Source: Streptomyces sp. (lineage in GTDB: Bacteria; Actinomycetota; Actinomycetes; Streptomycetales; Streptomycetaceae). From it: a DNA stretch of 64,000 nucleotides. Positions 7,050-64,000 of the stretch are shown piece by piece; position 1 is the stretch's first letter; each line of letters starts with the position of its first letter. The stretch lies in NCBI RefSeq assembly GCF_031181705.1, contig NZ_JAPSKN010000001.1, positions 62,001-126,000 of the forward strand. Reading direction: 5' to 3'. The notes below the pieces were generated by a model. It saw only the letters and a list, made by a program, of their open reading frames with translations. It was not told where the DNA came from and made no database searches. The translations under genes and the position numbers were made by a program.

Positions 7050-7123
<74 letters not shown>

Positions 7124-7131
7124 CGGTGCGG

Positions 7132-50852: not shown

Positions 50853-50926
<74 letters not shown>

Positions 50927-50945
50927 CTTGCTGAGACAGCGGGTC

Positions 50946-50983: not shown

Positions 50984-51217
50984 TCATGGCCGGTCAGACG
51001 CTTCCGGCCATGAGTCGTCGACCCCCAGCGCCACCAGCCGCCGATCCGGCTCCGGCCCGGCCGCGGCCCCTCGTGCCACGAGCCCGGGCGGCTCGTGCGC
51101 GGTCCGTTCCGCGATGCGTTCCACGTAGGCGCGCACGGACAGGCCCTCGGCCGCGGCCACCGCCGCCAGGCGGTCGTACGCGGACGCCGAGATGGTCAGG
51201 TCCCTCGTCTCAGGCAC
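50984..51217 (-). CDS. Small antitoxin-like (ribbon-helix-helix-type) protein
   Basis: 77 residues from GTG 51217. The N-terminal half, DLTISASAYDRLAAVAAAEGLSVRAYVERIAERT, has the strand-helix-helix pattern of small ribbon-helix-helix DNA-binding proteins, as seen in antitoxins and plasmid control proteins. No toxin gene is adjacent. Its start overlaps the end of the DsbA-like gene by eight bases (GTGCCTGA), so translation is coupled to it. The C-terminal half is poorly conserved in appearance. Assignment is from pattern only. Confidence 0.6.
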   Translation of the reverse strand: MPETRDLTISASAYDRLAAVAAAEGLSVRAYVERIAERTAHEPPGLVARGAAAGPEPDRRLVALGVDDSWPEASDRP

Positions 51218-51917
51218 CGGTGGGCTGCCTCCCCTCCGCCAGCAGGTCGAGCAACTCCCCGGCCCACGATGGGTCGTAGCGGTCCAGGCGCGGCACGCCA
51301 CCCTCGTTCGGGTCCTTCGTCCACGCGACGTGCGCACCCGGGTTGTGGGCCGCGTACCCTCCCGGCGCGAACAGGTGAGGGCTGCCCTGGACATCCGGTC
51401 CCTGGGCGACGCGGAACTGCTCGTGGACCTCGGCGCGGCCGGCGCCGCGCTCCAGGGCGCGGGCCAGCGCCTGCTCGTCCACGTGCTCGCACCGCGCGGC
51501 GACGTCGAGGATCTCCGAGGGGATGCTGACGCACCGGCTCTCGACGTAGAACGCGTGCCGCAGGCCGGCGTCCAGTTCGTCGCTGCCGCGCAGGCCGCCG
51601 ACGGACGGGTCCTTCGCGGCCTGGACCGCCTCCATCGCCGGCAGCATCGTCGACGGGTAGTCGTACTCCCGCCCCGACCACAGGCGCCAGCCGAGGTCGG
51701 GACGGTGCGCGGAGATCACCACGATCTCGGGCTCCACGATGAACTTGGGCGTCGGCTGGTGGTTGAACAGCTCCAGGGGGAACGCCCGGTGGTCGATCAG
51801 GAGGTCCTGCCCGCGGTCCCGGGCCGTGGTGCGCAGTGTGTGCAGGGCGAGGGAGGCCCAGGGACACCCCAGATCCGACCAGACGGTGACGGGTCGTGGC
51901 TCCGGGGCAGCGCTCAT
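51210..51917 (-). CDS. DsbA-family (FrnE-like) thioredoxin-fold protein
   Basis: A 235-residue cytoplasmic protein. The active-site region reads VTVWSDLGCPWASLALHTLR, with a single Cys18 in CPWA rather than the CPxC of disulfide oxidoreductases, so it cannot form an internal redox disulfide there. Further blocks (RAFPLELFNHQPTP, then LRHAFYVESRCVSIPSEILDVAAR and GSPHLFAPGG) fit the FrnE/2-hydroxychromene-carboxylate isomerase group, which often works with a low-molecular-weight thiol such as mycothiol. AAGGAGG precedes the ATG. Confidence 0.87.
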   Translation of the reverse strand: MSAAPEPRPVTVWSDLGCPWASLALHTLRTTARDRGQDLLIDHRAFPLELFNHQPTPKFIVEPEIVVISAHRPDLGWRLWSGREYDYPSTMLPAMEAVQAAKDPSVGGLRGSDELDAGLRHAFYVESRCVSIPSEILDVAARCEHVDEQALARALERGAGRAEVHEQFRVAQGPDVQGSPHLFAPGGYAAHNPGAHVAWTKDPNEGGVPRLDRYDPSWAGELLDLLAEGRQPTGA

Positions 51918-52273
51918 GGTGTCCTCCTTGGTAGCGGGACCACACCGGGGTCCCCGTCGTGTGTGCCGCGGCACGGAATTCCATGGTGACGCGCCTGCGG
52001 CGCCCGGCGCCCGATGCCGGTGTCACTCTGTCAACTCCCCCCGGAAGGGGCCCCGGACACGGTCACCGCGGACCGGACGGTGGTCTGGACACATCCTGAA
52101 CGGACTGTTCCGGATGGGGCCGCCGGGGCGGAGGGACGCGATGGTGGCCCGGCCACCGCCGCCCGTCACAAGTCCTGTGCTCCGTGTACCTGGGACCCGT
52201 GCCCCACCTGCCCGCACAGTGGACGGGCAGCCCTTCGGATCGTCTTCGTCTACTCCCGATGGAGGGTCCGTTC
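51918..52273. promoter_or_regulatory. Divergent intergenic region with a 10-bp-arm palindrome
   Basis: A 356-base gap between the DsbA-like gene and the transposase-like gene. CATCCTGAAC (52092-52101) and GTTCCGGATG (52107-52116) form inverted arms with one mismatch around the five bases GGACT. The spacing suits a dimeric operator. No terminal inverted repeat or target-site duplication belonging to the transposase-like gene was found here. Confidence 0.45.
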
Positions 52274-53488
52274 ATGAGTGTGGTCGTGCTGAGCCCTGAC
52301 CAAGCACAGAGTCCGACCATGCACGAGCCGTCGTACGCCTCTCCGTGCGCCGTGTCACTGCCGGAGATGTGTTCACTGCTGTTCGCCTCCCTGCCCCGCA
52401 GCGACCAACGTCGCAAGGGCATGGAGTACATACGTGGTTTGCTGGAGGTGAGGGGACGCAAGTCGATACGCAACATCGCCGCGCTTGTCGGAGGGCAGGC
52501 GACGGAACAGAGCCTGCACCACTTCATCAGCGATTCGAGTTGGGAGTGGGGCCCGGTGCGCCGGGCACTGGCCCGGTACGTGGTGAGTGTGGCCCCGCCA
52601 CAGGCGTGGGTGGTGCGCCCCATGGTGATCCCCAAGGCCGGGCGGCACTCCGTCGGAGTGGAGCGCCGCTTCTTCCCGGAACACGGCCAGATGCTCAACG
52701 CCCAGCAGGCCGTGGGCGTATGGGCGGTCTGCGAGGAGACGAGCGTGCCGGTCAACTGGCGCCTGCAGCTCTCCCCGTCCTGGTTCGCCGAGGACCGTCG
52801 GCGCCGTGCCTCCATCCCGGACGACGCGTCGGCCGAGACCCTCGGCGAATGCGCACTCCAGGCCTTCCTGGAGGCGGCCGCGTGGCGGCTGCCTCCCCGC
52901 CCCGTGGTGATGGACGCCCGCGGCGCTGACGTCGCCTCGACCGTGTCGCGGCTCCTGGACCGGGGCATGCCGATGATGCTCAGGGTGGACGACGCCCTGC
53001 GGCTGTCGGTCACGGACCCCGCGCTCAAGGGCTTCGACGCCGTCCCCCGGCCGGTACGCCAGATCATGGGCGCGAGCCGGGGCCTGCAGCGGCCGGTGGT
53101 GTGGCCTGACGACAGCATGGGGACGGTCAGGCGCTCCGGGCTCGTCACCGCCGTACGGGTGGCGCTGCCCGGGCCGTCGCGCCGGCGGACCGGAACGGGG
53201 CCGTGTGACCTGCTCCTGCTCGGGGTGGGGAACAACGACCGGAGCCGGCCGCGGGAGGTGTGGCTGACGGACCTGACGTCGGTTCCGCCCGCGTTCCCGA
53301 TGCGGCTGCGAGGGATGGTCCGCCGGGTCGACCAGGACTTCGCCCGGGGCGCCGACCAGGTCGGGATCCGCGACTTCGCCGGACGCTCCTACCGCGGCTG
53401 GCACCGGCACGTCACCCTCGCGTCGGCCGCGCACGCCCTGGCGGCCCTGGGCGACACCGACGACGGCGCTCTCGACTATGCGTCCTGA
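52274..53488 (+). CDS. IS701-type transposase-derived protein, probably catalytically dead
   Basis: 404 residues. The N-terminal part (SLPRSDQRRKGMEYIRGLLEVRGRKSIRNIAAL, then EQSLHHFISDSSWEWGPVRRAL) and the end (FAGRSYRGWHRHVTLASAAHAL) are clearly IS701-family. However, the first catalytic Asp block, normally WVVDDTGFPK, reads AWVVRPMVIPK (Arg115-Pro116). The Glu usually found in the FEGRS block is Ala369. Asp214 in VVMDARGAD remains. No flanking inverted repeats are seen. The open frame is full-length, so this looks like a domesticated DNA-binding protein rather than decay. It ends with a 13-base convergent overlap with the PucR gene. Confidence 0.8.
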   Translation: MSVVVLSPDQAQSPTMHEPSYASPCAVSLPEMCSLLFASLPRSDQRRKGMEYIRGLLEVRGRKSIRNIAALVGGQATEQSLHHFISDSSWEWGPVRRALARYVVSVAPPQAWVVRPMVIPKAGRHSVGVERRFFPEHGQMLNAQQAVGVWAVCEETSVPVNWRLQLSPSWFAEDRRRRASIPDDASAETLGECALQAFLEAAAWRLPPRPVVMDARGADVASTVSRLLDRGMPMMLRVDDALRLSVTDPALKGFDAVPRPVRQIMGASRGLQRPVVWPDDSMGTVRRSGLVTAVRVALPGPSRRRTGTGPCDLLLLGVGNNDRSRPREVWLTDLTSVPPAFPMRLRGMVRRVDQDFARGADQVGIRDFAGRSYRGWHRHVTLASAAHALAALGDTDDGALDYAS

Positions 53489-55434
53489 TCCCCGGCCGCG
53501 TCCCCGGCCGGCTCCCCGCGCTCCCGCAGCACCCGCCGTATCCGGGACATCCTCAGCGCCAGCTGGATCTCCAGGGCACGTTCGGGCCGCTGCCAGTCGG
53601 AACCGATCAGGTCACCGATGCGCTCCAGCCGGCGGGCCACGGTGTTGGGGTGCACGTGGAGCTTCTCGGCCGCGTACGTGGGGCTCCCCCCGGTGTCGAA
53701 GTAGGCGTCCAGCGTGCGGACCAGCTCCGTCAGGCGCTGCTCGTCGTAGTCGAGCACCGCTCCTATGGTGCTCTGAATGAACCTTTCGGCGTCCACCTGT
53801 TCCGACAGCAGCAGACCCACGAACCCCATCTCGTGGGTCGAGGCCGAGGTGCCGGTGGCGCCGAGGGCGGTCATCGCGTCCAGGCAGCGTGCCGCTTCCC
53901 GGTACCCGTGGAGGACCGCACCGGGGTCCGACACGGGTCCGGAGCCGCTGACCGTGGGCGGACCGCCGGGCAGGGACGACAGCTCGTCGTGCACCGTCCG
54001 GGCGGCGGCGCCCGGGTCGGTGCCCGGCAGCAGCAGCACGATGTCGCCCTCGTGCGTCGTCTGGAGCCCGTTCATGCGGAGCGCGCACGACGACGCCCGG
54101 GTCACCGCATGCGCCTGCGGGTCCCCCTCGGCGCGGGCGACGACGACCACGTGCGGCTGATCCAGGCCGATGCCGAGCCGGCGGGCGCGCCGCTCCAGCA
54201 CGTCCCGGGGCCGGGGCACACTGATCAGCAGGTCCCCGAGCAGTTCGTCGCGGAACTGCCCCTCCACGACCGTGCCACCGCCCTCCTGCAAGGACAGCAG
54301 CACGGCGGCGGCCCGGGCCGCGTGCCGCAGCAGTTCCGTGGCGTCGGCGGAGAGCGCGGGACCGGCCTGCACGTACAGGGCGCCCAGGTGGTGACTGCCG
54401 GCCAGGACCGGCACGGACCAGATGCCGTCGTCCAGGAGGGCGGGTGAGGGATCCAGCAGGGTCCCGGTGTCCTCCGCGGCGCGTGCGAGCTCCTCGCGAG
54501 TGCGCCCGCACAGGGCCCCGGAGGCGGCGATCGCCGTGCCGTGCGGACCGCACAGCAGCACCGGCGCACCCAGTCTGCGGCGGCACTCCTCGACCAGCAG
54601 CTGCGGATCACAGCCACCGAGCACCAGGTCCAGCAGCGCCCCCTGCGCCGCGGCCAGCGCGCGCGCCTCGTCCCGCGCGGCCTCCGCGCGCAGCACCCGC
54701 TCGCGCAGGGCCGACATCTCCGCGACCGTCTCGTCCAGGTACACGGCCCGGTCCAGCGCCACACCGCCGATCTCGGCGAGCATGTTCACCAGCGCTATCT
54801 CGTCGGCGGAGAAATGGCGCACACTGCGGTCCGCCACGTGCAGGGCCCCGGCGGTGGCCGCGCGGCTCAACGGCACGGCGAGAACGGCGTGCAGCCCCTC
54901 GGCGCTGATCCACTGATCGAGCTCGTCGGCGTGCCGGAAACTGTCGTCCGTCAGGTAGTCGGAGGTCCACAGCGGCGCGCGATGCGCCAGTACGGCGGCC
55001 GCGAGTCCCGCTCCCTTCGGTAATCGCAGCCGGGCGTTGAGCATCGTGACGTGGCCGTCGAGCGAGTGCAGCCGCCCCCCGTCGTCCTCGGCGGCGGGCA
55101 GGGTGACCCAGGAGACGTCGGCGCCGAGCAGCAGCCGCGCCCGGCGGGTGATGATCTTGAGGGTGTCCTCGACGGTGTGCGGACTGGCCAGATCGGCCGC
55201 GGTGTCGACGAGCGTGGCGAGGGCGGCGCTCCACTGCTGACGGCGCTCCAGCCGTGCCTGGATGCCCAGGGCCAGCCGTCTGGTCTGTTCCACCATGCGC
55301 AGGTCCGCGCCGGTCACGCCCTGTCTGCGGGCCTCCTCGACCACCGCTTCGAAGCGGTTCGCCGGCCCCTCACCCGCCAGGAGGTCCAGCAGCGCCAGCA
55401 CGGCCGCCACCGATGCGTCCTTCTTCTGCGACAC
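53476..55434 (-). CDS. PucR-family transcriptional regulator with GAF domain
   Basis: 652 residues from GTG 55434, which follows GGAGGG. A helical region (1-75) precedes a GAF domain near 80-230 (LLLGADVSWVTLPAAEDD, then GLHAVLAVPLSRAATAGALHVADRS). A coiled linker with ERVLRAEAARDEARALAAAQGALLDLVLGG follows, then a GGDEF-like degenerate PucR core, and a C-terminal helix-turn-helix (YAAEKLHVHPNTVARRLERIGDLIG near 595-620). Such proteins activate catabolic genes in response to small molecules. Likely targets are its neighbours, perhaps the MFS exporter on the same strand upstream. The start is certain only to family level. Confidence 0.88.
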   Translation of the reverse strand: MSQKKDASVAAVLALLDLLAGEGPANRFEAVVEEARRQGVTGADLRMVEQTRRLALGIQARLERRQQWSAALATLVDTAADLASPHTVEDTLKIITRRARLLLGADVSWVTLPAAEDDGGRLHSLDGHVTMLNARLRLPKGAGLAAAVLAHRAPLWTSDYLTDDSFRHADELDQWISAEGLHAVLAVPLSRAATAGALHVADRSVRHFSADEIALVNMLAEIGGVALDRAVYLDETVAEMSALRERVLRAEAARDEARALAAAQGALLDLVLGGCDPQLLVEECRRRLGAPVLLCGPHGTAIAASGALCGRTREELARAAEDTGTLLDPSPALLDDGIWSVPVLAGSHHLGALYVQAGPALSADATELLRHAARAAAVLLSLQEGGGTVVEGQFRDELLGDLLISVPRPRDVLERRARRLGIGLDQPHVVVVARAEGDPQAHAVTRASSCALRMNGLQTTHEGDIVLLLPGTDPGAAARTVHDELSSLPGGPPTVSGSGPVSDPGAVLHGYREAARCLDAMTALGATGTSASTHEMGFVGLLLSEQVDAERFIQSTIGAVLDYDEQRLTELVRTLDAYFDTGGSPTYAAEKLHVHPNTVARRLERIGDLIGSDWQRPERALEIQLALRMSRIRRVLRERGEPAGDAAGDQDA

Positions 55435-55770
55435 GAGGCCCTCCGGTGTCTCGTTCCCCAACCGCCGGCAGTGACGGTGCACGACGGCCGAGTCGCACGG
55501 ACCGCGGCCTACCGGCGCAACGGGAGGACTCCCGCGTGCATTCCGCGAGCCGTGCCCGCGAACCGGGAGCCGCAGCCTCTCCCCCCACATGGTCACCTGG
55601 TGGCCTGCGGCCCGGACCGGTGCCGGCCGACAACCGGGCAGACGCACTGTCCTTTCGCGAACCCCTGTGGCGATTATGCCAGTTGACGCATGTGGAGGTG
55701 CTCTGGGAAACGCGGTGTGCGCCGTCACACTCACGGGGTGTGACGGCGCACCCGGACCGGACGCCGGCGG
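55435..55770. other. Gap upstream of the PucR gene
   Basis: 336 bases with no supported gene. They hold the MFS terminator (55717-55751) and, on the minus strand, TGGCATAATCGCCA (about 55681-55668), a CATAAT -10-like box inside a TGGC/GCCA inverted repeat, the likely promoter/operator of the PucR gene. The rest shows nothing. Confidence 0.5.
55717..55751 (-). terminator. Terminator of the MFS gene
   Basis: GTGCGCCGTCACAC (55717-55730) pairs perfectly with GTGTGACGGCGCAC (55738-55751) across a seven-base loop, beginning 19 bases after the MFS stop on the minus strand. Confidence 0.85.
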
Positions 55771-57021
55771 TCAGAGCGCCAGGAGCGAGACGATGGCGGG
55801 CCCGAACGCCGCACCCAGCAGATAGGACAGGTTGAACATGCCGATGGCCGGGGGGCGTTGGTCGTCGGGGACGGCCGAGGTGGCGTGCACCGCGAACGCT
55901 CCCTGGCCCGAGGCCGCCGCGATCGACGTCAGGGCCTGAGCGGCCAGCAGGACCGCGGCGGACGTGCCGACGAAGGCCAGCACCGCTCCGAGCGCGGCGA
56001 GGGTGACCAGCGCGCTGATCACGGTCCGGCGTCCCGTCCGCGCCGACACCGCCACGACGAACCAGGACAGGGCGCCGCCCAGCAGCAGCGGCCACACCAT
56101 GGCGACGCCGATCTCACTGGTGGACCACGATGTGTGGTCCTCCAGCCGCTCCGGAATCGCGTACATCATGCCGAAGTTGACCACCGCCAGGCACAGCGCG
56201 AGGCCCGCGGAGACCAGGAAGCCCGGGTTGCGGACCAGGACCGCGGGCACGAAGCCCCGCGGCCGCGCGCGCACGTGGGCCGCCAGCAGTCCCGCGGCGA
56301 GGACGGAGCACACACCGGCCACCAGTGGCTGGTGGGGCACGAACACCAACGCGGTGACCAGCGCGGTCAGCAGCACCGCGCCCAGCGGGTCGAACGGCTC
56401 CCGGGTGACCGGGGCGCCGTTCGCGCACCGGGCCACGGCGAAGGGCACGGCCACCGTGCTGAGCACCGGCAGCGCGAGGGTGGCCTGCCAGGACAGCACG
56501 TCGTTGACGAGGGAACCGGCCAGCGGGGCCGTCGAACCCACCACGGCGAGCGAGGCGGTGACCAGCCCCATGGCGCGCGGCGAGCCGGCGAGGCTCATGG
56601 CCGTCGCCGTGAGACCGGCCGTGCCCAGACCCATCAGGGCGGTGCCCAGGACGAGGACCGGCAGCACGGGTATCCCGGCGACCAGGCCCGCCCCCAGCAG
56701 GACGAGCACACCGCAGACGGTGAGCGCGGCGCGCGCGCCCCGGCGGTCCAGCAGCCCGGCCAGCAGGGGCGTCCCGACCGCTATGCCCCAGCCGAACGCG
56801 GTCACGGTCCAGGTGGCGGCGCCGGTCGAGACGCCGAGGTCCCTCGCGGCGTCGTCCAGGACCAGGGCCGGGCCCGCGATGCCGAAGGACAGCGGGCCCG
56901 CCATGAGGGCAAGCCAGAGGGCCGCGGCTCCGTGGAACGGGCCGCGGGCTTCGGTTTCGTGAGGTTTCCTGCCCGGCGCGGCGGGACCCGGGGCGCCGGA
57001 CTCGGCGAGTGAGTTGCTCAT
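55771..57021 (-). CDS. MFS transporter
   Basis: 416 residues, about 12 membrane segments. Motif A-like GLLDRRGARAALTVCG occurs in the first cytoplasmic loop, and the fifth segment has GSTAPLAGSLVNDVLSWQATLALPV, similar to the antiporter motif of drug-exporting MFS proteins. ARTGRRTVISALVTLAALGA repeats motif A in the second half. The substrate is unknown. AGGGAG stands before the ATG. The old-yellow-enzyme gene lies 174 bases upstream on the same strand, so they may share a message or a purpose such as electrophile defence (inference). Confidence 0.88.
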   Translation of the reverse strand: MSNSLAESGAPGPAAPGRKPHETEARGPFHGAAALWLALMAGPLSFGIAGPALVLDDAARDLGVSTGAATWTVTAFGWGIAVGTPLLAGLLDRRGARAALTVCGVLVLLGAGLVAGIPVLPVLVLGTALMGLGTAGLTATAMSLAGSPRAMGLVTASLAVVGSTAPLAGSLVNDVLSWQATLALPVLSTVAVPFAVARCANGAPVTREPFDPLGAVLLTALVTALVFVPHQPLVAGVCSVLAAGLLAAHVRARPRGFVPAVLVRNPGFLVSAGLALCLAVVNFGMMYAIPERLEDHTSWSTSEIGVAMVWPLLLGGALSWFVVAVSARTGRRTVISALVTLAALGAVLAFVGTSAAVLLAAQALTSIAAASGQGAFAVHATSAVPDDQRPPAIGMFNLSYLLGAAFGPAIVSLLAL

Positions 57022-57195: not shown

Positions 57196-58269
57196 TCAGG
57201 CGTCCAGCGTCGGGTAGTCGGTGTAACCCCGGTGGTCGCCTCCGTAGAAGGTCTCCGGGTCGGGGGTGTTGAACGGGCCGCCGGCCTTGATCCGCTCGGG
57301 CAGGTCGGGGTTGGCGAGCCACAGCGAGCCGATGCTCACCGCGTCGCACAGGCCCTCCTCCAGCACCGCCCGGGCGGCCTCGGGCGTCACCGCCTCCTCC
57401 TCGCCCGTGGCGTGCGGGTTGAGGATCAGCACTCCGGGCCATTCCTGCCGGATCAGCTTCGTGACGTCACGGCTGCCGAACTCCATCAGGTGGACGTAGG
57501 CCAGGTTGAGCGGTGCCAGGGCCCGGATCAGGGCCCGGTACAGCGTGGCGGGGTCGCTCTCCGCGATGCCGTTGCTCGTGTTGGCGGGGGAGAGGCGGAT
57601 GCCGACCCGCTCGGGGCCGATGGCGTCGGAGACCGCCTGGGCGACCTCGACGGCGAAGCGGATGCGGTTGTCGACGCTGCCGCCGTAGGCGTCGGTGCGC
57701 AGGTTGGTGTTGTCGGCGAGGAACTGGTGGATCAGGTAGCCGTTGGCGCCGTGCAGCTCCACACCGTCGAACCCGGCGTCCATCGCGTACTTGGCGGCGG
57801 AGATGTGGTCCTCGACGGCCCGGGCGATGTCCTCCAGGTCCATGGCCTTGGGCGTGGGGTGGTCCAGCATGCCCTCCGGCGTGTACATCTGCCCGCCCGA
57901 GGCCACCGCCGACGGGGCCAGCGGCAGCGCGCCGTCCGGGTAGAGGCTCGGGTGCCCGATCCGGCCGGAGTGCATGACCTGCACGAAGATCCGGCCCTGC
58001 CTGCCGTGCACCGCGTCGGTCACCCGGCGCCACGCCTCCGCCTGCTCGGGCGTGTGCACACCCGGGGTGTCGATGTATCCCTGCCCGATCACGCAGGGCT
58101 GCGTGCCCTCGGTGATGATGAGACCCGCTCCGGCGCGCTGGGCGTAGTACTCGGCCGCCAGCGGGGTCTGCACGCCGTCCTTGGCCCGGCTGCGCGTCAT
58201 CGGCGCCATGACGAGCCGGTTGGGCAGCGTCAGCTTTCCCAGGGGCAGCGGTTCGAAAAGGTGGCTCAC
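57196..58269 (-). CDS. Old-yellow-enzyme-type alkene reductase
   Basis: A 357-residue FMN-dependent reductase that saturates activated C=C bonds using NADPH. The start HLFEPLPLGKLTLPNRLVMAPMTRSRA and later blocks QVMHSGRIGHPSLYPDG, GFDGVELHGANGYLIHQFL (substrate-binding His and Asn pair), YGGSVDNRIRFAVEV and GSLWLANPDLPERI (FMN phosphate) are all standard. GTG 58269 preceded by GGAGG fits the family; ATG at 58281 and 58302 are in frame. It is divergent from the LAL regulator. Confidence 0.93.
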   Translation of the reverse strand: MSHLFEPLPLGKLTLPNRLVMAPMTRSRAKDGVQTPLAAEYYAQRAGAGLIITEGTQPCVIGQGYIDTPGVHTPEQAEAWRRVTDAVHGRQGRIFVQVMHSGRIGHPSLYPDGALPLAPSAVASGGQMYTPEGMLDHPTPKAMDLEDIARAVEDHISAAKYAMDAGFDGVELHGANGYLIHQFLADNTNLRTDAYGGSVDNRIRFAVEVAQAVSDAIGPERVGIRLSPANTSNGIAESDPATLYRALIRALAPLNLAYVHLMEFGSRDVTKLIRQEWPGVLILNPHATGEEEAVTPEAARAVLEEGLCDAVSIGSLWLANPDLPERIKAGGPFNTPDPETFYGGDHRGYTDYPTLDA

Positions 58270-58329
58270 GATCTCCTCCATCGGGGAACCGGCTTGTTCC
58301 ACACCGTAGGAAGGGGGGCGGCCCGGCCG

Positions 58330-58382: not shown

Positions 58383-61049
58383 ATGGGCCGCGTCACGGGG
58401 AGTGGGGGCACCGACGTGCTGTACGGCAGGTCCACCGAGCTGGCGGCGCTTGAGGATCTGGCCGCGGGAGCCCGCGAGGGACGCAGCGGTGCCCTGGTGC
58501 TGCGGGGTGAGGCGGGCATCGGCAAGACCGCCCTGCTCGACCGGGCGGCGAAGTCGGCCTCGGCGGCCGGCATGCGCGTCCTGCGGGTCACCGGGGTCGA
58601 GCCGGAGGCGGACCTCGCCTTCGGCGGGCTGGTGCAGTTGCTGTGGCCCGTGCAGGACCGGCTGGACGCCCTGCCCGAGCCGCAGGCACAGGCGCTGCGG
58701 GCGGTGCTCGGCATGGGCAGCACCCGGACCCAGGACCGGTTCCTGACCGGGCTGGCCGTGCTCACGCTCCTGGCGGACCTGGCCGAACAGGGACCGTTGC
58801 TCTGCCTGGTGGACGACGCGCAGTGGCTGGATCAAGCCACCTCCGACGCGTTGCTGTTCGCCGCCCGCCGGCTCGCCGCCGAGCAGGTGGCCATGGTGTT
58901 CGCGACCCGGGACGAGGGCTTCGCCGCGCCCGGGCTCGCCGAACTGCGGCCCTCCCGGCTGGACACCGGCGACGCGGTGAGCCTCCTCGCCGACCTGGGG
59001 CTGACCCCCGCCCTGCGGGACCAGGTCATCGCCGAGTCCGCGGGGAACCCGCTGGCGCTCATCGAGTTCGGGGCCGCCCGCCGCGACGACCCGGGCCGGT
59101 TCACGCCCGTGACGGTCGCCGACCGGGTGCTGTCGTCGTACCGCACCCAGATCGCCGGACTCCCCGAGAAGACGCGGCTGGCGCTGTTGTTCGCCGCGGC
59201 CGAGGGGCGGGGCGACCTGCCGCTGCAGATGAAGGCGGCCCGGTCGCTGGGCGTGGGCCTGGAGGATCTGGAGGACGCGGAGCGGGCGGGGCTGATCCAG
59301 GTGACCGAGAGCACCGTGGTGTTCCGCCACCCGCTGATCGGGACCGCCGCCTACCAGGGGGCCGTGCTGGCCCGGCGGATCGCCGTCCACCAGGCGCTGG
59401 CCGAGGCGGCGGAGGACCCCGACTGCCGGGCCCGGCACCTGCCGCTGGCCACCACGTCACCCGACGACGGAGTCGCGGCCGAACTGGTCGCCGCCGCCGA
59501 GCGGGCCGCCGACCGCAGCGCCTACGCCGCCGCCTCGCTCCTGCACCAGCAGGCCGCCCGCCTCACTCCCGACCGCCGCGCCCAGGTCCACCGGCTCACG
59601 GACGCCGCGACCTGCGCACTCAACGCCGGGCACGCCGGCCAGGCCCGGGACCTGGCCGAGCAGGCCGAGCAGTCGGCCGCCGCACCGGAGGACCTGGCCC
59701 GGCTCGCCCCCGTGCGGGCCGCCGTGATGTTCGAGTCGGGTCACCAGCGGGAGGCCGCCCGCCTGCTGCTGCGGCGGACGCACGCGGCCGGCGCCGGCCT
59801 GGCCCCGGTCATGCTCCGCACGGGCGCCACGTACGGCTGGTTCGCCGGTGACGCGGACTCGGTGCGGGAGGCCGCCGAGCGGCTGGCGTCCCTGGGGGAG
59901 GCCGACCCGATGGTGGAGGGCATGGCGCACCTCGTCGACGACGACTACGCCCGCGGACTGCCCCTGCTGCAGCGCGCCGTCGCCGCCGGCCGGGACGGCT
60001 CGGACGCGGCGCGCACCCACGCCCTGCACAGCGCGGTCCTGCTCGGGGACGACGCCGCGGCCATGGAACTGGCCGCGGCGGAGGTGGCCCGCTGCCGCGC
60101 GCAGGGCCTCATCGGCGCCCTGCCGCAGGCCCTGCACCTGCTGGCGGAACGCCAGGTGCTGGCCGGGGCGCACCGGGACGCCGAGGCGGCGGTGGCCGAG
60201 GCCGTGGAGATCGCCCGCGACACCGGCCTGCGCGAGCGCGTCGCCTGGCTGAACGGCGTTCCGGCGCGGATCGCGGCCATCGAGGGCGACGAACAGCGCT
60301 GCCGCGACCTCACGCGGGACGTGCCCGACGCCGGCCGGGTGGCCGGCGAGAGCGCCCTGAGCCTGCTCGAACTGGCGCGCGGCGACTACGAGGCGGCGCT
60401 CGGCCGGCTGGAGAGCGCCGTCGGCCCGGGGCCGCAGCGCCACACGGCGATGGCCATGGCCACCGTCGCCGACCAGGTGGAGGCCGCGGTACGGCTCGGG
60501 CGGCACGAGCGGGCGGTGCGGCCGATGCGCGCCTTCGAGGCCTGGGCGCGGGCCGGAGACCAGCCGTGGGCGCGGGCGGTGGCGCACCGCTGCCGGGCCC
60601 TGGTCGAGGGGCGCGAGGAGGACTACCGGCAGGCGGTCCGGCTGCACGAACAGGGCCGGCGGCCCTTCGAGCGGGCCCGCACCGAGCTGCTGTACGGGGA
60701 GTGGCTGCGCAGGGCCCGGCGGCGCAGCGAGGCCCGCGCGTCGCTCCGGTCGGCCCTGGAGCACTTCGAACGGCTGCGTGCCGCGCCCTGGGCGGAGCGG
60801 GCCCGGGCGGAACTGCGGGCGGCGGGCGACGCGACGACGGGCGCGAAGGCGACCGCGGAGAACGTCCTCGACCGGCTGACCCCGCAGGAACTGCAGGTGG
60901 TCCGGCTGGCGGCCGACGGCAACAGCAGCCGGGAGATCGCCGCGCAGCTGTTCCTCAGCCGCAGGACCGTCGAGCACCACCTGTACAAGGCCTATCCCAA
61001 GCTGGGCGTCGGCTCGCGGCGGGAGCTGGCCCGGCTGAACCTGGCCTGA
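58383..61049 (+). CDS. LuxR-family regulator of the LAL type
   Basis: 888 residues. The N-terminal ATPase has Walker A GEAGIGKTAL near residue 43 and Walker B LLCLVDDAQWLD near 140. A long TPR-like helical middle (about 330-800) follows. The C-terminal helix-turn-helix is LTPQELQVVRLAADGNSSREIAAQLFLSRRTVEHHLYKAYPKLGVGSRREL. LAL proteins often activate natural-product or sugar-use genes in actinobacteria. ATG 58383 lacks a ribosome site; GTG 58416, just before LYGRSTELAALE, is an alternative. The adjacent plus-strand genes (MDR, SRPBCC, ligase) are the natural targets. Confidence 0.92.
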   Translation: MGRVTGSGGTDVLYGRSTELAALEDLAAGAREGRSGALVLRGEAGIGKTALLDRAAKSASAAGMRVLRVTGVEPEADLAFGGLVQLLWPVQDRLDALPEPQAQALRAVLGMGSTRTQDRFLTGLAVLTLLADLAEQGPLLCLVDDAQWLDQATSDALLFAARRLAAEQVAMVFATRDEGFAAPGLAELRPSRLDTGDAVSLLADLGLTPALRDQVIAESAGNPLALIEFGAARRDDPGRFTPVTVADRVLSSYRTQIAGLPEKTRLALLFAAAEGRGDLPLQMKAARSLGVGLEDLEDAERAGLIQVTESTVVFRHPLIGTAAYQGAVLARRIAVHQALAEAAEDPDCRARHLPLATTSPDDGVAAELVAAAERAADRSAYAAASLLHQQAARLTPDRRAQVHRLTDAATCALNAGHAGQARDLAEQAEQSAAAPEDLARLAPVRAAVMFESGHQREAARLLLRRTHAAGAGLAPVMLRTGATYGWFAGDADSVREAAERLASLGEADPMVEGMAHLVDDDYARGLPLLQRAVAAGRDGSDAARTHALHSAVLLGDDAAAMELAAAEVARCRAQGLIGALPQALHLLAERQVLAGAHRDAEAAVAEAVEIARDTGLRERVAWLNGVPARIAAIEGDEQRCRDLTRDVPDAGRVAGESALSLLELARGDYEAALGRLESAVGPGPQRHTAMAMATVADQVEAAVRLGRHERAVRPMRAFEAWARAGDQPWARAVAHRCRALVEGREEDYRQAVRLHEQGRRPFERARTELLYGEWLRRARRRSEARASLRSALEHFERLRAAPWAERARAELRAAGDATTGAKATAENVLDRLTPQELQVVRLAADGNSSREIAAQLFLSRRTVEHHLYKAYPKLGVGSRRELARLNLA

Positions 61050-61151: not shown

Positions 61152-62138
61152 ATGATGCGTGCTGCCTACATTGAACAGCTCGGATCTCCGGACGTCATCC
61201 GTTACGGTGATCAGCCCACGCCGGAACCCGGGCCGACCGACGTCCTGGTGGACGTCACGGCCGTCTCCGTCAACCACGTCGACACCTTCGTGCGCTCGGG
61301 CGCCTGGCGCACCCCGCTCACCTTCCCCTTCGTCATAGGCCGGGACCTCACCGGTACCGTCGCCGCGGTCGGCGCCGGCGTCCACCGGTTCCGCCCCGGC
61401 GACCGGGTGTGGTGCAACAGCCTCGGCCACGACGGCCGCCAAGGGGCCGCCGCCGAGCGGGTGGTGGTGCCCGTCGACCGGCTCTACCACCTGCCGGAGG
61501 GCGCCGACCCGTACGAGACCGTGGCGCTGGCCCATCCGGCCGCGACCGCCTACCTCGGCCTGTTCACCCACGGGCGGCTGCGCCCCGGCGAGACCGTCGT
61601 CGTGGTCGGCGCGGGCGGGAACGTGGGAAGCGCCATGGTGGTGATGGCCGCCGCCGCGGGCGCCCGGGTCGTCGCCGTCGCCTCCGCGCGGGACGCCGGG
61701 TACTGCCGCGGTCTCGGCGCCGACCACGTCGTCGACTACCGGGACCCCGACGTGCCCGGGCGCATCCGGGCCGCCGCCCCCGGGGGCGCCGACCTCTACC
61801 TCGACGCCTCCGGCACCAACGACCTGGAGACCGCGGTGGACCTGCTCGCCGGGCGGGGACGGATCGTGCTGCTCGCCGGACTGCGCACCAGGCCCGTGCT
61901 GCCGGTGGGGCCGCTGTACCTGCGGGACCGTTCGATCCACGGGTTCGCCATCTCGCACGCCACCGCCGGGGAGCTCGCCGAGGCCGCCGGCGCCATCAAC
62001 CGGCTGGTCGCCGACGGCCGTCTCGGGCCCCGGGCGATCGAGCGGCTGCACCTGAGCGACGCCGCCGAGGCGCACCGCCGGCTGGAGGAGGGCAAGGTGC
62101 ACGGAAAACTCGTGCTGAGCGTGGGCGCCGAGGGCTGA
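61152..62138 (+). CDS. Quinone-oxidoreductase-like (MDR, zinc-free) dehydrogenase
   Basis: A 328-residue NADPH-dependent medium-chain reductase. The catalytic domain starts RAAYIEQLGSPDVIRYGDQPTPEPGPTDVLV. The nucleotide fold is [34 protein letters not shown]. Zinc-ligand Cys and His residues of alcohol dehydrogenases are missing, as in the quinone oxidoreductase branch. Such enzymes reduce enones or quinones and occur in polyketide clusters. ATG at 61152 is preferred; ATG 61155 and GTG 61146 are possible. CAGAAT 10 bases upstream could be a -10 box. Confidence 0.88.
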   Translation: MMRAAYIEQLGSPDVIRYGDQPTPEPGPTDVLVDVTAVSVNHVDTFVRSGAWRTPLTFPFVIGRDLTGTVAAVGAGVHRFRPGDRVWCNSLGHDGRQGAAAERVVVPVDRLYHLPEGADPYETVALAHPAATAYLGLFTHGRLRPGETVVVVGAGGNVGSAMVVMAAAAGARVVAVASARDAGYCRGLGADHVVDYRDPDVPGRIRAAAPGGADLYLDASGTNDLETAVDLLAGRGRIVLLAGLRTRPVLPVGPLYLRDRSIHGFAISHATAGELAEAAGAINRLVADGRLGPRAIERLHLSDAAEAHRRLEEGKVHGKLVLSVGAEG

Positions 62139-62241: not shown

Positions 62242-62784
62242 ATGACTCAGTCAATCATCGACACCTCGCCGCTCTTCGAGCTCAAGGCCGACATTCACAT
62301 TTCCGCGACCCCGCTGGAGGTCTACTCCGTCGTCAGTGATCTGCCGCGCAGTTCCGAGTGGAGCCCCGAATGCCGGGGCGGCACGTGGGTCTCCGGTGAA
62401 CCCTCCACCGTCGGCGCCGTCTTCCGGGGCGAGAACCTCCGCAGCGAGGACGTCGTCGCCTGGGCGCCCCTGGTGCGCGGCGTCTGGCACACCGAGTGCC
62501 GCATCACCGCGGCCGACCCCGGACGCACCTTCCAGTGGATGATGCTCACCCACGCCCGCGAGGACCAGGAGAGCATCTGGGGCTTCGACATGGCGCCCGC
62601 CGACGAGGGCTGCGTGCTCACCCACCACTTCCGCATGGGCCGCGCCACGGCCGGCATCCACAAGATCGTCGCCGACCTGGACGAGAACGACCGCAAGCGT
62701 TTCGTCGCCGACTGGACCGCCAAGCTCGAACAGGACCTCGACGCCACGCTGAAGCGCATCAAGGATGTCATCGAAAAGCGGTGA
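62242..62784 (+). CDS. SRPBCC (START/polyketide-cyclase-like) protein
   Basis: 180 residues with the helix-grip pattern: ADIHISATPLEVYSVVSDLPRSSEWSPE at the start, VGAVFRGENLRSE in the middle, and a long C-terminal helix (FVADWTAKLEQDLDATLKRIKDVIEK). These proteins bind hydrophobic ligands and include aromatase/cyclases. There are no absolutely conserved catalytic residues to check. It lies 103 bases after the MDR gene and 91 bases before the ligase gene. The gap before it carries the weak third copy of the CTGACA repeat. Confidence 0.85.
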   Translation: MTQSIIDTSPLFELKADIHISATPLEVYSVVSDLPRSSEWSPECRGGTWVSGEPSTVGAVFRGENLRSEDVVAWAPLVRGVWHTECRITAADPGRTFQWMMLTHAREDQESIWGFDMAPADEGCVLTHHFRMGRATAGIHKIVADLDENDRKRFVADWTAKLEQDLDATLKRIKDVIEKR

Positions 62785-62875: not shown

Positions 62876-64000
62876 ATGTTTCTCCAGCGCATCGGAAACA
62901 AGGGAATTCGGCTGGGTACGCTTTTCGACCGGGCCGCGGCTCGGCACCCGGCGAATCCCGTGATCCTCGACCATGATCTCGACGTCGCTCCGGAGCGCGG
63001 GCGCCGCATGACGCTGACGGAGGTCGCCGACCTCGTCGACGACCTGGCCTCGCGGCTGTGGGCGGCGGGCGTCCGGCCCGGGGAACGCGTGGTCGTCCAC
63101 AAGACCAACGGGTTCGACATCACGCTCCTGGCCTGCTCCACGGCCAGGATCGGCGCCGTGCCGGTCCTGCTGTCCCCGAAGCTCGACGGCGCGACCGTGT
63201 GCGAGCTGGTGCGCCGCGTGGACCGGCCGTACCTGGTGACCGACCAGGACAAGCTGGACCACCACCTGCCCGCCGAGATCTTCGGCCTGACCCGGCAGGT
63301 GCTCCTCGCCTCCGGCAGCCACGACGAGGCCGTCACCCTCGCGTCGCTGGCCGGCTCCACCCGGGTCGCGCCGGTGACCATGCCCCCGGACCACCCGACG
63401 CTGGTCACCCACACTTCCGGCACCACCGGGACGCCGAAGCTGGCGGTGCACACCGGGCGCACCTTCGAGGCGCGCTACCGCCCCCAGGGCACGGTGGCGT
63501 CCCTGGTGGGCCGCAGCGAGCCGGTGGCCATCCACGTGTCGTTCGTGCACTCGCGGATGTTCACCGCCATGCCCATCACGATCCTCCAGGGACACCCGAT
63601 GATCATCCTCCGGGACGACGACCCGGAGGTCGTGGCCGAGGTGTTCGGGCAGGCCCCGCCGGGCCTGATCGAGGCGCACCCGAACACGTTCCTGCGCTGG
63701 GAGGTGCTGGTCGACGACCCGCGCCGGCCGCTGGCGAACGTGAAGTACTTCAGCAGCACCTTCGACGCCATCCACCCGCGCACCGTGCACCTGATGCTCA
63801 CCGCGTCCCGCCGCGAGAAGCCGCAGTTCGTCCAGATGTACGGCCAGAGCGAGGTCGGCCCGATCGCCGGGCGCACCTACTCGAAGAAGCGTGGCGCGGA
63901 CGCCGACGGCCGCTGCGTGGGCTCCCCGTTCCCCGGCATGACGGGCGTGCGGGTCGTCAGCCGGGACGGCAAGCGTCCCACCAAGTCCAACCCCGGTTAC
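62876..64000 (+). CDS. AMP-dependent ligase (acyl-CoA synthetase-like), N-terminal part
   Basis: Open from ATG 62876 to the window end: 375 residues of a family usually 500-600 long; the C terminus lies outside. The P-loop LVTHTSGTTGTPKLAV is near residues 179-192. The later YGQSEVGPIAG (about 322-332) is the adenylate-binding TE-type block. GQAPPGLIEAHPNTFLRWE separates them. Such enzymes activate a carboxylic acid as AMP ester and load it on CoA or a carrier protein. With MDR and SRPBCC genes and a LAL regulator, this looks like the start of a secondary-metabolite cluster (inference). Confidence 0.9.
   Translation, partial: MFLQRIGNKGIRLGTLFDRAAARHPANPVILDHDLDVAPERGRRMTLTEVADLVDDLASRLWAAGVRPGERVVVHKTNGFDITLLACSTARIGAVPVLLSPKLDGATVCELVRRVDRPYLVTDQDKLDHHLPAEIFGLTRQVLLASGSHDEAVTLASLAGSTRVAPVTMPPDHPTLVTHTSGTTGTPKLAVHTGRTFEARYRPQGTVASLVGRSEPVAIHVSFVHSRMFTAMPITILQGHPMIILRDDDPEVVAEVFGQAPPGLIEAHPNTFLRWEVLVDDPRRPLANVKYFSSTFDAIHPRTVHLMLTASRREKPQFVQMYGQSEVGPIAGRTYSKKRGADADGRCVGSPFPGMTGVRVVSRDGKRPTKSNPGY

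Follow-up and report, generated by a model that had tools for sequence, protein, structure and literature searches.

A domesticated IS701-type transposase in a biosynthetic-type gene block of Streptomyces, a candidate cluster-situated regulator

The locus and its conserved block

The window analysed here, a stretch of 64,000 nucleotides of Streptomyces DNA, carries at 52274..53488 on the forward strand an IS701-derived gene, in the following called 701, whose product of 404 aa has been assigned by profile matches, alignment and a structural model. The protein scores 302.8 bits against the IS701 transposase profile NF033540 (cut-off 150) and is also matched by DDE_5 (PF13546) in a Pfam search. 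The open frame of 404 aa and the NF033540 match over residues 30-392 agree with an earlier note on this DNA, which had described the protein as full-length. By eye, a ribosome-binding site precedes the start at 52274, and the small indels found between orthologues upstream of this start suggest that the DNA there is non-coding. TTA codons, which are usual in Streptomyces regulators, occur in 31/146 family genes vs 7/146 neighbouring genes and 2/181 controls of 300-500 aa, and the window 701 gene has none. Of 199 Streptomyces genomes, 164 contain a 701 match, a count that takes in distant true transposases; one genome (G108) has the same family gene near both chromosome ends with equal scores, presumably owing to terminal repeats. 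A sequence search of solved structures with the 701 protein gave no match up to an E-value of 1, and the phage records searched gave none either.

The 701 gene belongs to a block of nine genes, the left edge of which is formed by a divergently oriented DsbA-like protein (51210..51917, reverse strand, PF01323; FrnE-like by eye). To the right of 701 follow, on the reverse strand, a regulator with GAF, GGDEF-like and PucR-HTH domains (53476..55482; PF13556, PF17853, PF13185), which is convergent with 701 and is called PucR below, an MFS transporter (55771..56904, PF07690) and an FMN oxidoreductase of the old yellow enzyme type (57196..58281, PF00724). These are succeeded on the forward strand by a large LuxR-type regulator with an ATPase domain (58497..61049; PF00196, PF13191), a zinc-type dehydrogenase (61248..62138; PF00107, PF08240), a polyketide cyclase-like (SRPBCC) protein (62242..62784, PF10604) and an AMP-binding ligase (62960..64000) that continues beyond the window end and has been assigned to PF00501 from the whole gene in locus L134. 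Orthologues of 701 with 76-91% identity have been found in seven other Streptomyces, and all nine genes are present in this order in 5/5 orthologous loci with full flanks, while two short orthologous contigs show a partial and consistent order. The left flanks of the orthologous loci differ from that of the window; those of L053 and L055 are alike. The convergent overlap of 701 with PucR, to which the earlier note had drawn attention, amounts to 13 bp (53476-53488) and has an identical length in 7/7 orthologous loci.

Median pairwise omega values are 0.31 for 701, 0.35 for PucR, 0.25 for the LuxR-type regulator, 0.24 for the MFS transporter, 0.22 for the flavin oxidoreductase and 0.19 for the DsbA-like protein, as obtained with a rough method in which medians were taken because the value of 2.2 for PucR between the window and L057 stems from a broken alignment. 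Conservation of the block and these values together indicate that the 701 gene is under selection and part of a biosynthetic-looking block, so that conservation at this position and selection, both of which the earlier note had proposed to look for, are indeed observed. The gene is located in a biosynthetic-type cluster beside regulators.

Farther along the contig, nitrate reductase-like and carboxylesterase-like genes have been recognized by eye, and asparagine synthase and N-acetyltransferase genes by eye and Pfam. The window also holds two identical tRNA-Pro(GGG) genes (7050-7124 and 50853-50927; 75/75 bases, 43.8 kb apart), the second of which adjoins the conserved block on its left; a tRNA-Pro lies ~1.3 kb left of the block in L054, that is, in 1/5 orthologous loci scanned. 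Between ~29750 and 48664 the window contains what appears by eye to be a region for sugar/inositol-type catabolism, including an ABC transporter and several Gfo/Idh-type dehydrogenases.

Catalytic residues and predicted fold

The states of the catalytic residues have been read from an alignment of 182 distinct relatives, including multi-copy D-D-E elements. The window protein does not carry the D-D-E triad: the first Asp is replaced by R115, with P116 as its neighbour, the second Asp is D214, the Glu position is occupied by D353, and the Lys position (residue 360) holds Ala. The protein belongs to a large clade of actinomycete sequences. Among the 105 core members of this clade, defined by a clade-profile score of at least 500 bits, the first Asp has been lost in 105/105 (R 85, Q 15, H 5) and the Lys that belongs to the Glu helix is likewise absent from 105/105, the second Asp is retained in 101/105, and the Glu position holds D in 53, E in 35 and other residues in 17 sequences. 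Relatives scoring below 190 bits, which are mostly multi-copy elements, have the first Asp in 10/10 and Glu together with Lys in 9/10 cases, the tenth being gapped there. For the intermediates, the first Asp is seen in 0/14 (400-500 bits), 1/27 (300-400 bits; this single sequence is a second paralogue in L095), 7/16 (240-300 bits) and 3/10 (190-240 bits). The loss has therefore been spread along the tree rather than having occurred in one step.

The claim of the earlier note that the first Asp-Asp pair has become Arg-Pro is borne out by R115-P116 in the alignment with multi-copy D-D-E relatives. The Glu of FEGRS, which it took to be catalytic, has to be given up, as the catalytic Glu aligns in the preceding helix, which contains D353 in the window protein and reads WRIEHDYRELK in the sister multi-copy group. 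Its statement that the protein is devoid of catalytic residues holds where the first Asp and the Lys are concerned but fails for D214. The alignment that it had suggested as a check shows that every core sequence has lost the first Asp and that D-D-E is intact in the multi-copy relatives that were examined.

The model of 701 (pLDDT 90.4) has a Tn5/IS4-type DDE (RNase H) fold with a catalytic core and a helical N-terminus. Foldseek relates it to Tn5 transposase with an E-value of 6.7e-12, and the predicted fold is common to Tn5 transposase and the Tn5 inhibitor protein (PDB 1mus and 1b7e, Z 23.8 and 16.7), the superposition on 1mus aligning 331 residues (model residues 25-403) with an rmsd of 4.5.

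Signs of mobility

The own genome, a draft assembly of 5.8 Mb that is 81% complete, contains one further 701 homologue with 32% identity and no identical second copy. The D-D-E elements that were examined are present as near-identical copies whose ends can be defined, the nearest multi-copy relative having CTAGTAGGACTCCGTTAGGT at both ends of ~1437 bp. Sister-type IS ends (consensus of G091 and G049, at most 3 mismatches) have 0 matches in the window, as has CTAGTA, and the inverted repeats near the 701 gene are scattered, imperfect, GC-rich pairs (among the matches listed, 25 of 42). The missing terminal repeats reported in the earlier note are confirmed by the absence of sister-type ends and by the conserved neighbours on both sides; several identical copies with terminal repeats, which it named as a possible refutation, are not seen in the draft genome, where the 32% homologue is the only other relative.

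The observation that the D214 position has remained Asp in most core sequences and that the third position is Asp or Glu in 88/105 could be taken to mean that 701 is still a mobile or recombining enzyme, relying on other residues or acting in trans. Such activity is nevertheless highly improbable, given that the first Asp (in most cases now Arg) and the Lys position have been lost without exception in the core, that neither sister-type ends in the window nor an identical copy in the draft genome have been detected, and that the position of the gene is conserved. That the window 701 is a domesticated IS701-type transposase, as had been proposed in the earlier note, is strongly supported by the clade-wide loss of the first Asp, purifying selection, the conserved block, and the lack of ends and of an identical copy.

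Genomic company of the family

The surroundings of the family have been compared in 40 loci from few-contig genomes, hand-picked among the matches listed, by taking 18-kb regions around the family genes as cases and 40 regions of the same replicon, shifted by 150 kb and mostly towards the chromosome centre, as controls. Family names of the neighbours have been assigned by eye, PucR domains being confirmed by Pfam for the window gene. GAF-PucR is found in 12/40 family loci vs 0/40 controls, always as the next gene and convergent. SARP-type genes occur in 13/40 vs 0/40, ScbR-type and ScbA-type genes in 8 vs 0 each, ADIC-synthase-type genes in 7/40 vs 0/40, isochorismatase-type genes in 7 vs 0 and a short-chain dehydrogenase family in 15 vs 2; CoxLMS-type families are also enriched (8 and 7 vs 0), mostly from one orthologous group. 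As biosynthetic clusters become rarer towards the chromosome centre and the controls have mostly been shifted inward, part of this enrichment may reflect location. Within six genes of 701 (n = 40), PucR has been counted 12 times, SARP 12, ScbR 6, ScbA 5, ADIC 7, isochorismatase 5 and DAHPS 4, and since orthologous loci inflate such raw context counts, the loci have also been collapsed at 60% identity into 29 clusters, of which 8 have PucR, 9 SARP and 6 ScbR. Any of the three is present in 16/29 clusters, and 13/29 are without PucR, SARP or ScbR.

Several arrangements recur. ScbR-type, 701 and SARP genes follow one another repeatedly, and tandem 701 pairs directly precede DAHPS-isochorismatase-ADIC genes in five loci (L071, L091, L092, L095, L122). 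On named plasmid records, 701 adjoins SARP, ScbR and ScbA according to the annotation of the first, is itself unannotated and lies next to the gene for a helix-turn-helix protein in a polyketide cluster in the second, and overlaps fabI in a biosynthetic gene string in the third. One orthologous group (L155-L159 and L161, 6/40 loci) places 701 in a string which by eye is of CoxLMS / TMEM175 / XdhC / GuaB-like type; these loci are without any biosynthetic marker used and constitute a second home of the family.

Relatives on plasmids have been annotated as plain transposases, as would suit a passenger, i.e., a decaying IS remnant trapped in a cluster by chance. This explanation is very improbable in view of the constant partner and orientation across many different clusters, the omega of 701 close to that of its neighbours, the occurrence of an internal stop in just one family member (G038) among the matches listed, and the 0 family copies in the 40 control regions 150 kb away. 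Among the 7 orthologous loci, no 701 pseudogenes have been seen.

Operator-like palindromes upstream of 701

Two operator-like palindromes precede the 701 gene, GGTGGTCTGGACACA at 52079..52093 (matrix score 17.3) and, 64 bp from it, GGTGGCCCGGCCACC at 52143..52157 (matrix score 19.3), both found as pattern matches. The upstream palindrome mentioned in the earlier note is thus real, being the second of these two GTG-N7-CAC sites in tandem. Taken alone, the pattern is no rarity, with 10 matches vs 6.3 expected in the whole window; the palindrome exceeds chance by its position and its association with PucR. Pattern enrichment in 97 non-redundant family upstreams vs 1000 others in the same loci has ranked GGTG-N7-CACA (28 vs 33) and GGTG-N6-CCAC (35/97 vs 62/1000) at the top, the symmetrical form of the operator matrix being GGTG-N7-CACC. 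A simple pattern composed only after inspection of the matrix, [GT]GTG-N7-CAC[CA], lies upstream of 25/25 non-redundant PucR-paired genes vs 2/41 without PucR, and in shuffled upstreams it is met in a mean of 1.0 of 25. A five-fold hold-out matrix gives scores above 10 for 23/25 PucR-paired upstreams vs 2/41 without PucR (Fisher p 2e-13); in neither arm of the test are 29/97 upstreams whose context is too short to be classed (14 of 29 score above 10) and 2/97 in which PucR is near but not next (both score above 10).

Sites scoring above 12 occur in the 400 bp that precede the aligned domain in 57/58 PucR-paired loci, a set that includes orthologues and members used for training the matrix, and 43 of them have two or more. 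Successive sites are regularly phased, with 31 of 64 spacings measuring 32 bp and 17 measuring 64-65 bp, which is near whole helical turns. Outside the 701 promoter, 72 sites above 12 have been found in 1.17 Mb (58 loci), a higher density than in the controls (17 in 720 kb), and in 20/58 loci a further intergenic site is located 3.1-3.5 kb downstream, at the expected place of the PucR promoter; among lower-ranked PucR loci, an intergenic site is present in 2/16. In L243 and L245, where PucR and 701 are kilobases apart, the sites precede the 701 gene, while L244 has a site before PucR and none before its 701 gene. L242, the one PucR of the clade examined that has no 701 gene in its stretch, is without a site above 12.

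Two origins of the operator have been considered and rejected. The ends of multi-copy elements are unlike GTG-N7-CAC, which speaks against a relic of IS ends, and a site belonging to 701 itself is disfavoured by its presence in 2/41 family genes without PucR, although L242 tempers this rejection. From the sequence patterns, the PucR protein would be the likeliest binder, and PucR and 701 may bind jointly at these sites. The association with PucR does not by itself identify the binder, and 701 genes without PucR are mostly without the site. Promoters of the latter kind carry 11-bp direct repeats, CCAA-N7-CCAA in 6/24 vs 2/1000 and CAAG-N6-CCAA in 6/24 vs 3/1000, which may resemble SARP sites.

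Partnership with PucR

The window PucR has been searched in 199 genomes, and the positions of 103 family matches and 64 PucR matches have been compared among the matches listed, weaker ones being excluded, so that weak family genes next to PucR genes of low rank could escape. Of the best 43 listed PucR matches from other genomes, 37 lie convergent with a family gene at a distance of at most 316 bp; of the remaining six, one lies at 1.5 kb, three lie within 6 kb and two are without a family gene. The next 21 among the matches listed (ranks 44-64) include 2 that adjoin a family gene. The drop from 37/43 to 2/21 indicates that a distinct PucR clade accompanies the 701 gene. In L089, three weak PucR-like calls stand in a row downstream of 701 and possibly represent one broken PucR gene.

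Interpretation and relation to known systems

We regard it as rather probable, on the basis of sequence and genomic context, that 701 is a cluster-situated DNA-binding regulator derived from a dead DDE transposase, with its promoter under a local master regulator. This regulatory reading fits because of the company of PucR, SARP, ScbR and ScbA and the operator-bearing promoter, even though adjacency to regulators is no proof of a regulatory role. The 701 protein would bind DNA via its retained N-terminal helical domain and the inactive Tn5-like core and, once bound, would regulate transcription of the cluster's biosynthetic genes or co-regulate them as an architectural protein. Its own expression would be under the control of the local master regulator, in this case the GAF-PucR protein, and clusters appear to have swapped this master regulator (PucR, SARP or ScbR type) and retained the 701 protein. 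A more far-reaching proposal, which we hold to be doubtful, is that dead IS701 transposases constitute a new family of natural-product regulators which still pair two DNA sites and which, together with PucR, might loop the phased tandem operators in a transpososome-like manner, the master regulator being exchanged.

The domesticated protein might instead be no transcription regulator at all and serve as an architectural or protective DNA-binding protein, be it of nucleoid type, in bridging, or in protection against a DNA-active product. A fold like that of Tn5 whose active site is no longer intact would suit this role, and so would the conservation profile, in which the first strands (mean column entropy 1.03 bits), the N-terminal helices (1.12) and the C-terminal helices (1.25) vary least and the insertion (1.96) varies most, as would be expected if DNA contacts have been kept and cutting has been lost. 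We judge this alternative to be unlikely, as the recurrent flanking by ScbR-type and SARP genes or pairing with PucR, along with the operator-bearing promoter, looks regulatory, and as the CoxLMS-type members are without an obvious DNA-active product.

Compared with known systems, 701 resembles IS701 family transposases (NF033540, DDE_5 PF13546) in its near whole-length sequence, N-terminal block and second Asp, and is distinguished from them by the lost first Asp and Lys, by fixed partner genes and by the fact that no terminal repeats have been found. The Tn5 inhibitor, a transposase product that occurs naturally, does not transpose and has a regulatory function, acts on its own transposon. 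It remains tied to this element, whereas at the 701 locus no transposon is left. Another bacterial protein, TldR, originates from TnpB, is RNA-guided and belongs to an unrelated protein family, while 701 is a DDE transposase. As described in PMC13418256, TldR is a transposon protein turned transcription factor in bacteria, which is what is proposed here for 701. With the cluster-situated regulators of Streptomyces (SARP, ScbR, PucR-HTH) 701 shares the position in clusters, an operator-bearing promoter and, in part of its family, TTA codons, but these regulators have classic DNA-binding domains and 701 has a dead transposase fold. In a literature search that covered few subscription journals, no account of an IS701-like protein in the role of a cluster regulator has been found, and the word "transposase" is absent from the main text of PMC4425429, PMC12814520 and PMC10817512.

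If the regulatory reading is true, genes labelled "transposase", which are easily dismissed as cluster debris, would belong to the regulatory circuit of these clusters, and 701 genes would become possible levers to wake silent natural-product clusters. The family would then also provide a bacterial example of a DDE transposase turned regulator, for which an operator pattern and a partner gene have already been defined.
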